Below are positions 7,849 to 10,139 of a DNA stretch of 64,000 nucleotides, in pieces. Where the stretch lies: assembly GCF_004683965.1 (NCBI RefSeq), contig NZ_CP038436.1, positions 930,001-994,000 on the forward strand, written 5' to 3'. Each line of letters starts with the position of its first letter. The first letter of the stretch is position 1. The notes under the pieces were generated by a model. The model saw nothing but the letters and a program-made list of their open reading frames with translations. It was not told the origin of the DNA and did not search any database. The position numbers were made by a program, and so were the translations under genes. Source of the stretch: Nocardioides seonyuensis. GTDB lineage: Bacteria; Actinomycetota; Actinomycetes; Propionibacteriales; Nocardioidaceae.

Positions 7849-8346
7849 ATGATGCCGGATGTGACCACCCCGCGCATCGGCATCGGCACCGACGTCCACC
7901 GGCTCGTGGCGGGCGTGCCGCTGCACCTCGCCGGCCTCGCCTGGCCCGACGCGCCTCGCGGCCTGGAGGGGCATTCCGACGCCGACGTCGCGGCGCACGC
8001 CGCCTGTGACGCCCTTCTCTCCGCTGCCGGGCTCGGCGACCTGGGCAGCAACTTCGGCACCTCCGAGCCGGAGTGGGCCGGGGCCTCGGGCGCCACCTTG
8101 CTGGCCGAGACCACGCGCAGGGTTCGCGAGGCTGGGTTCGACATCGGCAACGTCGCCATCCAGGTGATCGGGAACGAGCCCCGGCTCGGCCCACGGCGCG
8201 CGGAGGCCGAGGCCGCCCTGTCGCAGGCTGCGGGGGCGCCGGTCACGGTGTCGGCCACGACGACCGACGGTCTCGGTCTCACCGGTCGCGGCGAAGGGGT
8301 GGCCGCGGTCGCCACCGCCCTGCTGACAACCTCCTCCGCCGGCTGA
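7849..8346 (+). CDS. ispF: 2-C-methyl-D-erythritol 2,4-cyclodiphosphate synthase
   Basis: A 165-residue enzyme of the MEP isoprenoid pathway. It converts CDP-methylerythritol 2-phosphate to the cyclic diphosphate with release of CMP. Typical motifs are RIGIGTDVH at the start (zinc-binding Asp and His), [17 protein letters not shown], and the C-terminal [13 protein letters not shown]. Two consecutive ATGs and a GTG four codons on are possible starts; the first is used. ispD follows after 26 bases, although ispD seems to have its own promoter. Confidence 0.95.
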
Positions 8347-8372: not shown

Positions 8373-9068
8373 ATGTCCACAGCCGTCGTCATCGTCGCCG
8401 CCGGGTCGGGCACGCGCGTGGGCGCAGGAGTCAACAAGGTGCTCCTCCCCCTGCTCGACCGGGCTGTCCTCGCCTGGTCGGTGCGTGACGCGCTCGCGGT
8501 CGCCGACCTGCACGCCGTCGTGGTCGTCGTACGCCCCCAGGACCGGCCCGCGGTCGCCGAGGCGCTGACTCCGCACCTCGGCGAGGCAGAGGTCCTGCTC
8601 GTCGACGGAGGAGCCACCCGTCACCAGTCGGAGTGGGCCGCCCTGCGGCTCCTGGCACCGGCGATCGAGGCAGGAGACGTCGACCTGGTGGCGATCCACG
8701 ACGGCGCCAGGCCACTGGCTGGGGTGGCGCTCTTCGAGTCCGCGCTGGCTGCTGCCCGTGACCACGGTGGTGCCATCCCCGTCCTTCCGGTCCGCGACGT
8801 CGTCACGACCGGGTCGGCAGCCGTCGAGGGTGAGCTCGGCGCCGTGCAGACACCGCAGGCCTTCCGTGCCGCCGACGTCCTCGCCGCCCATCGCGAGGCG
8901 GCCGCGACCGGGTTCGAGGGCACCGACACCGCAGCGGTGCTCGAGCACTGGGCAGCGCGCACCGGCACCGACGTCTCCGTGGTGGCGGTGCATGGCAGCG
9001 CGACCAACCTGAAGATCACCTTCGCCGAGGACGTGGCCGTGGCCGAGCGACTGCTCAGCCAGCGGTGA
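8373..9068 (+). CDS. ispD: 2-C-methyl-D-erythritol 4-phosphate cytidylyltransferase, short-armed
   Basis: A 231-residue cytidylyltransferase of the MEP pathway, making CDP-methylerythritol from MEP and CTP. The CTP site is intact: AAGSGTR and the Lys of NKVLLPL near the start, HDGARP, TPQAF, and the C-terminal NLKIT Lys. The segment that forms the dimer arm in known IspD (PxxDT(I/M)K ... R-G/A-x-L ... TPQ) is changed: it reads PVRDVV and is about nine residues shorter, so the arm Thr and Arg that normally reach into the partner's MEP site are not visible. The stop overlaps the convergent IspD-like gene by 14 bases. The call is firm; unaided activity is uncertain. Confidence 0.88.
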
Positions 9069-9645
9069 GGGCAGCCAGCAGCGTGATGTCGTCGGCGGAA
9101 CCGACACGGCGGGCAGTCGCGGGGGCCTCCACCTGGACCACGAGGTGCGAGCGCGCCAGGTCGATGACCGCTGCGACGAGATCGGGGCCCGGGGCGGTAG
9201 GCAGGGCTGCGACCACGGAGGGCGGCAGCACCACCGGTGAGGCGACCGAGCGCAGCCGGTCGCGGTCGACGGTCTCGCCGACCAGTCCGTGACTGACGAC
9301 CTTGACGGTGTCGGTCACCGGCCGCGTCGCGACCACGACGGCGTCCTCGGCCAGCGACCGTTGCACGCACGCGACGATGAAGTCGGGCGGCGTCATGGGG
9401 CAGAGGGAGTCGTGGAGCACGACGGGGTCACCCGTTTCGGCGGCCGTCCCGGCCAGGGCTTCCCACTCGACGGAGGCGTCGAGCAGCGTCGCACCCGCCT
9501 CGCCCAGGGCCCAGGCAGCACACGCCACCAGCGCCTCCCCGTGGATGAGCGCGTAGGGCAAGGACCCGCGCCCGGCATCCAGAACGAGACCGAGGCCCCT
9601 GGGAGCTTCTTCCCAAGGGCCTCGGTCTGCGTGGTTCTCGGTCAA
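9055..9645 (-). CDS. Diverged IspD-like protein next to carD
   Basis: A 196-residue protein resembling IspD end to end but with the catalytic core eroded. The loop LVLDAGRG remains but lacks the following Lys. HDAARP has become HDSLCP, TPQ is gone, and the C-terminal Lys motif reads RRVGSADDI. The dimer-arm segment is well kept: PVTDTVK followed by VDRDRL. About 35 residues are missing after the first helix. It occupies the slot directly behind carD where ispD lies in mycobacteria. A strong hairpin falls inside the first 20 codons, so the TTG start is uncertain and translation may begin further in. It could be a decaying paralogue or a partner of the ispD protein. Confidence 0.7.
9587..9628 (-). 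terminator. Strong hairpin behind carD
   Basis: Eighteen-base arms (9587-9604 and 9611-9628) differ at one position and enclose a 6-base loop. It begins 25 bases past the carD stop and has no long T-run. It probably ends or attenuates carD transcription, although it lies within the predicted start of the IspD-like gene. Confidence 0.65.
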
Positions 9646-9653
9646 GCCGTCGC

Positions 9654-10139
9654 TCAGGACGCCAGGACCTCGTCGAGGATGGCCTCGGCCTTGTCCTCGT
9701 TGGTCTTCTCGGCCAGCGCGAGCTCGGAGACCAGGATCTGGCGCGCCTTGGCCAGCATCCGCTTCTCGCCCGCGGACAGGCCTCGGTCGCGCTCACGGCG
9801 CCACAGGTCGCGCACGACCTCGGCCACCTTGTTGACGTCGCCGGAGTGGAGCTTCTCGAGGTTGGCCTTGTAGCGACGCGACCAGTTGGTGGGCTCCTCC
9901 ACCTGCGCGGCACGAAGGATGTCGAAGACCTTGTCGAGTCCGTCCTTGTCGACGACGTCGCGGACGCCGACCAGGTCGAGGTTGCAGGCCGGGACGCGCA
10001 CGACCAGGTCCTGCTGGGCGACGATCCTCAGAACGAGGTACTGACGGTCCTCCCCCTTGATCTTCCGCATCTCGATGTCCTCGATGACTGCGGCCCCGTG
10101 ATTGGGATAGACAACCGTTTCGCCGACGGTGAAAGTCAT
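9654..10139 (-). CDS. carD: CarD/CdnL-type RNA polymerase-binding regulator
   Basis: A 161-residue global transcription regulator that binds the RNA polymerase beta subunit and stabilises open complexes, notably at rRNA promoters. The N-terminal Tudor-like RNAP-interaction domain opens with [14 protein letters not shown]; the C-terminal helical DNA-binding domain contains [15 protein letters not shown]. Length and sequence match mycobacterial CarD closely. It has a typical start with a purine-rich leader and a possible -10 box. Confidence 0.95.

Follow-up and report, generated by a model that had tools for sequence, protein, structure and literature searches.

Two convergent genes of Nocardioides seonyuensis raise the question of how a bacterium obtains its MEP cytidylyltransferase, IspD, when one of its IspD-like proteins has lost the beta-arm and the other has lost the catalytic core. 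The genes lie within a stretch of 64,000 nucleotides (NZ_CP038436.1, positions 930,001 to 994,000), termed the window, whose own numbering is used below. IspD is a homodimer in which the beta-arm of each subunit folds across the other and makes its MEP site complete, the Thr and Arg of the arm reaching into that subunit's active site. An initial sequence-only reading had suggested that the two proteins might form an obligate heterodimer. The accessible portions of two papers describe the arm as joining the monomers, with the active site at their interface, and as carrying the MEP site (PMC11796317, PMC11770629); MEP is thought to bond with Arg157 and Lys213 (PMC11770629). In the sections available of a third, Thr140 bonds the hydroxyls of the erythritol part, and the corresponding Thr141 of the Francisella enzyme lies at the substrate, a T141D variant losing 75% of the activity and T141E all of it (PMC3111433). 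Residue numbers are those of E. coli IspD unless a protein's own numbering is given, and the strictly conserved residues are those listed in the available part of PMC11770629.

Two IspD-like proteins with complementary losses

The first protein, D (8373..9068, + strand; 231 residues plus a stop), is a core-only IspD and the putative catalytic subunit. It matches the Pfam IspD model at 150 bits over its whole length (4-229), and lies under the cut-off of the NCBIfam IspD equivalog TIGR00453 (152.1 versus 181.3 bits). The CTP/Mg core of IspD (EC 2.7.7.60) is present, D holding the P-loop AAGSGTR, NK(22), HDGARP, TPQAF, and NLKIT; 8394..8438 (+) encodes the P-loop, which binds CTP, together with Lys22 (Lys27 in E. 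coli). The beta-arm is missing. Its remnant (residues 136-158; 8778..8846, +) has Val at the Thr140 position and no equivalent of Arg157, and the hairpin is absent from a single-chain AlphaFold2 model (mean pLDDT 94.1) for which Foldseek returned IspD as the top PDB folds.

The same pattern was found at other loci of the family. We counted 149 D rows (71 plus 78) and 158 X rows from family loci in two sets, one of genomes and one of named-species contigs, which have species in common, so that not all rows are independent. The contigs of L096 and of G082:C24, for instance, are equally long. Thr140 or Arg157 was present in none of the 149 D rows, while Lys27, Arg85, Ser88, Asp106, Arg109, Thr165, and Gly18 were present in all of them, Arg20 in 148, and Lys213 in 147. 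Thr or Ser at 140 and Arg157 were found in 41 of 41 canonical IspD rows. The arm of D had a median length of 18 residues, compared with 24 in canonical rows, and when 35 D proteins were aligned the invariant columns included the CTP core but none fell between Pro136 and Gln159, the arm region. Because the segment varies in both length and sequence (14-31 residues), it holds no conserved substitute MEP site. Misalignment was considered as the cause of the missing arm residues, and rejected after the columns had been checked against canonical rows in two alignments. In one genome (G318), the D match is restricted to model positions 71-224. Before counting, the two X frames of locus L067 and the D of L076, which is cut by the locus edge, were removed; the first X copies of L155, L164, L168, and L172, which score below a 120-bit limit, were left out of the counts and read separately.

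The second protein, X (9055..9645, - strand; 196 residues plus a stop, with a putative TTG start), is the reverse of D: an arm-only, IspD-like pseudoenzyme that would be its partner. X matches the Pfam IspD model solely at 70-143, a stretch of 74 residues that surrounds the arm (34.9 bits; cut-off 27), and over the same stretch the proteins of solved structure most similar to it in sequence are mycobacterial IspD. The arm, RPVTDTVK...TVDRDRL, is complete; the intact segment PVTDTVK...VDRDRL (residues 109-131; 9253..9321, -) includes Thr113 and Arg128. In the core, the P-loop Arg is replaced by Leu, the segment that would hold Lys27 is missing, HDxLCP stands where HDxxRP is expected, and Lys213 is exchanged for Arg, so the CTP/Mg core of EC 2.7.7.60 is lacking and the beta-arm is present. 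A single-chain AlphaFold2 model (mean pLDDT 93.6) contains the arm hairpin, with strands at 115-118 and 121-125, and Foldseek again gave IspD as the top PDB folds.

Both arm residues were found in 155 of the 158 X rows, the three others being armless first copies in loci with two X genes (discussed later). Lys27 and Arg85 were deleted and Arg109 replaced by Cys in all 158, and Lys213 was replaced by Arg in 157; Asp106, the sole tested core residue that the window's X retains, was kept in 157. The losses that the sequence-only reading had seen in two proteins are thus complementary column by column across the family, the one exception, among D proteins outside it, being a single Arg157 in 22. 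An alignment of 40 X proteins contained 14 invariant columns, including Asp112, Thr113, and Arg128 of the arm and a new D-x-L-C-P motif, and the arm residues were invariant in 20 X sequences only 31-63% identical to that of the window. The motif, which stands in place of HDxxRP (residues 79-83 of the window's X), is strictly conserved in the X proteins of the family, with an invariant Cys. Judged by DxLCP and the Arg at 213, the pseudo-active site appears to be remodelled, not freely decaying, and these conserved novelties exceed what arm donation alone explains.

D and X are convergent, and their 3' ends overlap by 14 bp. Each gene has a neighbour immediately upstream on its own strand, ispF (7849..8346, +) in the case of D and carD (9654..10139, -) in that of X; X occupies the position behind carD that relatives give to canonical ispD. 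Among the PF01128 matches in the genome of the window, a single contig of 3.97 Mb, we found no IspD besides D and X; a third match (29 bits over 125 positions) was taken for GlmU from its match pattern. An 18-bp hairpin (9587-9628, -) lies directly 3' of carD and, if the TTG start is correct, within the first codons of X; over 61 nt the predicted energy was -43 kcal/mol, with a z of -6.5, and none of 200 shuffled sequences was as good. It may be the terminator of carD or an attenuator, or may point to a later start for X.

We consider it about 80% probable that D and X would be two subunits of one MEP cytidylyltransferase, an obligate heterodimer in which the arm acts in trans. D would supply the CTP/Mg site and the catalytic Lys, Arg, and Asp, having lost its own arm; X, having lost the CTP site, would survive as an arm donor, with Thr113 and Arg128, its counterparts of E. 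coli Thr140 and Arg157, placed in the active site of D. Because D has only the core and X only the arm, a D:X dimer would be obligate and would contain one complete site, formed by the D core and the X arm; D:D would comprise two cores without arms, and X:X arms without cores. We infer that the two proteins bind each other as a dimer, that X is required for activity, and that the stoichiometry is 1:1. The basis of this reading is (i) the complementary losses, (ii) co-occurrence and joint absence, (iii) selection on X, (iv) the predicted folds, and (v) the lack of an ordinary IspD in the 23 pair-bearing genomes checked singly, namely that of the window and 22 from outside the family.

Inheritance of D and X in the family and order

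A match to X at E <= 0.001 was obtained in 84 of 149 same-family genomes, the weakest of these matches being cross-hits to canonical IspD. The neighbourhoods of these matches mostly read carD, X, D, ispF, and some other genera have carD, canonical IspD, ispF. A motif scan of contigs from 84,980 named species, which used the Nocardioidaceae type of X and is blind to the X of other families, yielded 87 relatives, of which the 80 listed bear the labels Nocardioides, Marmoricola, or Pimelobacter, or are metagenome-assembled genomes labelled Nocardioidaceae, Propionibacteriales, or Actinomycetota. D lay opposite X in 78 of these 80, and the other two stop at a contig edge. D and X were convergent in 148 of the 149 family loci having both, with a median stop-to-stop distance of -14 bp in each set; in the sole exception (L034, G127), D is on the strand of X. 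Being convergent, the two genes are not co-transcribed, unlike those of many heterodimers.

Across the 293 genomes of the order, which was the range of the survey for X without D, D and X were found in the identical 91 genomes, with no exception in either direction. The classes are well separated: strong D matches scored at least 226 bits (next best 147), and strong X matches, counting the top match in each genome, at least 165 bits (next 71.5). The sequence-only reading would have been refuted by a short-armed D occurring widely without its partner, or by stops in X or its absence from close relatives. No such D was seen, either in the 91 genomes of the order or in the 22 outside the family (described below), and the five same-genus genomes (of 85) that lack X also lack D; X is under purifying selection, one genome, G046, having it in two frames. 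The five, which retain carD, are G340 (L184), G099 (L185), G274 (L186), G261 (L187), and G265 (L191).

The sole full-length IspD homologue in each of those five genomes is complete, a single chain comprising both core and arm, and they therefore do possess a complete enzyme. Four of the five homologues pass the NCBIfam ispD cut-off, and three carry a short-chain dehydrogenase domain; they are of another branch, that of the CDP-alditol enzymes (TarI-type, a label of our own), and are probably another replacement of IspD. At least 17 pair-bearing genomes of the family, counted by eye, also hold a second, complete IspD homologue, and in these the pair need not be the sole source of activity. A complete IspD elsewhere in the genome was also considered; none was found in the genome of the window or in the 22 outside the family, but at least 17 pair-bearing genomes within it have one.

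In a rival reading, D and X would make some other CDP-alditol, and MEP would be left to a separate, complete cytidylyltransferase, for instance the IspD homologues fused to a short-chain dehydrogenase. This would accord with the presence of complete core-plus-arm proteins in part of the family, including the 17 or more pair-bearing genomes, and with their being the only full-length homologue in the five genomes without the pair. We nonetheless hold it to be very improbable, as no such homologue occurs in the genome of the window or in the 22 outside pair-bearing genomes, D adjoins ispF in the window, and in g59 genomes the pair is present where ispD is missing. ispF was found in 148 of 149 family genomes, indicating that the MEP pathway is general in the family.

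The pair outside the family and the native ispD

The sequence-only reading had placed the split in the Nocardioidaceae; it does occur there but is not confined to that family, being found in five others as well. A D profile run against 393 genomes of the class identified 22 outside the family at 240 bits or more, the next score being 157. Ten of them belong to f7, nine to f25, and one each to f27, f41, and f43; f7 is probably the Mycobacteriaceae, since one canonical f7 IspD was nearest to mycobacterial structures (273 bits, with the next group at 125). All 22 contain an X-like partner, with Thr (12) or Ser (10) at position 140, Arg157 in every case, and a broken core. None of their D proteins has Thr or Ser at 140, and one has Arg157: the D of G616 (L229, f7), in which position 140 is Leu, retains Asp-Arg at position 157, perhaps as a remnant of the lost arm. 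In f27, f41, and f43, the D arm is of near-normal length (28, 25, and 23 residues, respectively) but still without Thr140 or Arg157.

In 21 of the 22 genomes the partner converges on D, either adjoining it or at most about 2 kb away. The remaining genome, G672 (f43, L281), has X between carD and ispF, at the site of ispD, and D on another contig; this locus may record an early stage in the division. X follows carD in G429 and G558. The position of X at the site of ispD in G672, or after carD in the other two, fits X as a degenerate native IspD.

No canonical IspD was found in any of the 22 genomes. Their remaining matches are a few fragments, together with short matches, at the N-terminus of frames about 500 long, that look like GlmU, to judge from the pattern. 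In genus g59 of f7, 10 of 27 genomes, counted by eye, contain the pair. Each of the ten has ispF immediately behind carD, with no ispD between the two, and D and X lie elsewhere; carD-ispD-ispF is intact in the three genomes without the pair that were examined. Both f25 pair-bearing genomes examined likewise read carD-ispF. In the g59 and f25 genomes examined, therefore, absence of the ordinary enzyme goes with possession of the pair.

Phylogenetic trees placed the D and X clades within canonical actinobacterial IspD. All D proteins fell in one clade (100/100), apart from the complete CDP-alditol-branch homologues. All X proteins formed one clade as well, with support of 95 in a quick tree of 122 rows and 97/86 in a careful tree thinned from it to 83 rows, from which three long-branched X rows were left out and in which long branches are still in play. 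In an approximately unbiased (AU) test, placement of X with the canonical IspD of its own family was rejected for f1 (p 0.011) but not for f7 (p 0.156) or f25 (p 0.32), so that X may have had separate origins in these two. We lean towards the view that D and X constitute a two-gene module, sufficient by itself, which took the place of the native, essential IspD in six or more actinomycete families; that the two genes are always inherited, transferred, or lost together, the division being irreversible unless another complete cytidylyltransferase is relied on; and that X may have arisen repeatedly from the native, carD-linked IspD after the arrival of D. Carriage on plasmids was also considered and set aside: a tblastn search with two D proteins gave, among the matches listed, only places below 60% identity, and those listed with a gene name were ordinary ispD.

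Selection, duplicated X genes, and related systems

The close pairs from which dN/dS was taken (values across all pairs being unreliable) gave medians of 0.21 for X (14 independent pairs above 80% identity) and 0.19 for D (13 pairs), and the X frames that were read are open. X is thus under purifying selection. Were X instead a functionless, decaying relic of the native IspD, the loss of its catalytic core would be expected, as would cases like G046 (L067, 2412-3038), in which X is split over two frames by a frameshift or a sequencing error. This explanation is scarcely credible given the dN/dS of X, the arm that stays invariant among 20 sequences so divergent from that of the window, and the presence of X in 91 of 91 genomes with D; vestigiality was ruled out on the first and last of these grounds. 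Some genome matches to D or X contain one stop codon, and the genes of G102, G139, G090, and G044 (X) and of G076 (D) are open at their loci.

Evolutionary distances of D and X were correlated across 56 loci after those of ispF and carD had been removed (partial r 0.63); the corresponding values were 0.05 for D and ispF, 0.39 for X and ispF, 0.32 for D and carD, and 0.04 for X and carD. As locus pairs are not independent, this correlation is supporting evidence only.

Seven family loci (L063, L064, L069, L155, L164, L168, and L172), whose species may overlap, contain two X genes in tandem. In all seven, the carD-side copy is armless, with a few residues in place of the arm, and the second copy has the arm Thr and Arg. 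The same two-part pattern of X matches was seen, from genome matches alone, in G294, G298, and G328. Selection for arm donation predicts one arm per genome, and the two-X loci agree with it. That an armless X is retained beside an armed one also shows that proteins of the X type can serve some other purpose.

In one alternative, a homodimer of D would be active alone, its MEP site rebuilt without an arm, and X would be a regulatory pseudoenzyme that binds D. D has kept every strictly conserved core residue, and X has both a conserved DxLCP motif of its own and armless copies. We think this alternative unlikely, however, in view of the lack of a conserved substitute MEP site in the arm of D, the invariance of the arm Thr and Arg in 40 X sequences, the retention of one arm where X is duplicated, and the failure to see D without X in 91 plus 22 genomes. 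Against the obligate D:X heterodimer itself stand the convergence of the genes, the Arg157 of G616, the 17 or more genomes with a complete homologue, the armless X copies, the conserved novelties of X that arm donation leaves unexplained, the two-frame X of G046, the partial D match of G318, and the single stop codons in some matches.

The fold of D and X is that of the IspD homodimers of M. tuberculosis (2xwn, 3q80), B. subtilis (5hs2), and E. coli (1ini), and the two proteins jointly hold the active-site residues tested. In known IspD, core and arm belong to one polypeptide that forms a homodimer; here they are on two proteins, and the complete form is absent from the 23 pair-bearing genomes checked. 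If the heterodimer is real, it would be a clear natural case of the passage from homodimer to heterodimer, with one active site held by two obligate subunits, and it comes with built-in comparators: relatives with the undivided enzyme, a locus with X at the ispD site, and genomes where one of two X copies has shed its arm. Both drugs and herbicides are aimed at IspD, and inhibitors of the arm site would then face a different target. Annotation of X as a weak IspD, or of D as a complete one, may mislead metabolic models.

The proposed relationship is of a kind already known, since activation by a dead paralogue has been described for trypanosomatid AdoMetDC (PMC5201418) and deoxyhypusine synthase (PMC3663545). 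As presented in the accessible parts of the reports on AdoMetDC/prozyme (PMC5201418) and DHSc/DHSp (PMC3663545), an impaired catalytic subunit is activated by its dead paralogue, and by analogy D and X may act alike; both DHSc and DHSp are essential (PMC3663545). As in prozyme-type systems, the dead paralogue X is conserved and co-inherited (91 genomes of the order; 22 of 22 outside). The trypanosomatid enzymes differ from D and X in fold, kingdom, and pathway, and, so far as those parts describe them, they work by relief of autoinhibition and allosteric activation, whereas X would instead give substrate-binding residues to the active site.

In the open-licence PMC literature, outside which subscription papers mostly lie, we found no report of a divided IspD, or of a substrate site shared between two co-inherited genes that replace an undivided one. 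The genes of the MEP pathway have been surveyed across 4,400 species, and the available portion of that study describes IspD as evolutionarily rigid (PMC10663253). Two other variations on the enzyme can be compared with the pair. The complete CDP-alditol-branch homologues found in some relatives, some of them fused to a dehydrogenase, belong to the same superfamily and have core and arm in one chain; of five tested, four reached the NCBIfam ispD cut-off and none that of the ribitol-5-phosphate model. IspDF fusions (1w55, 8xkf) vary the architecture in another manner, in that two enzymes are fused, and not one active site divided, and a canonical IspD-IspF fusion is present in one f25 relative.
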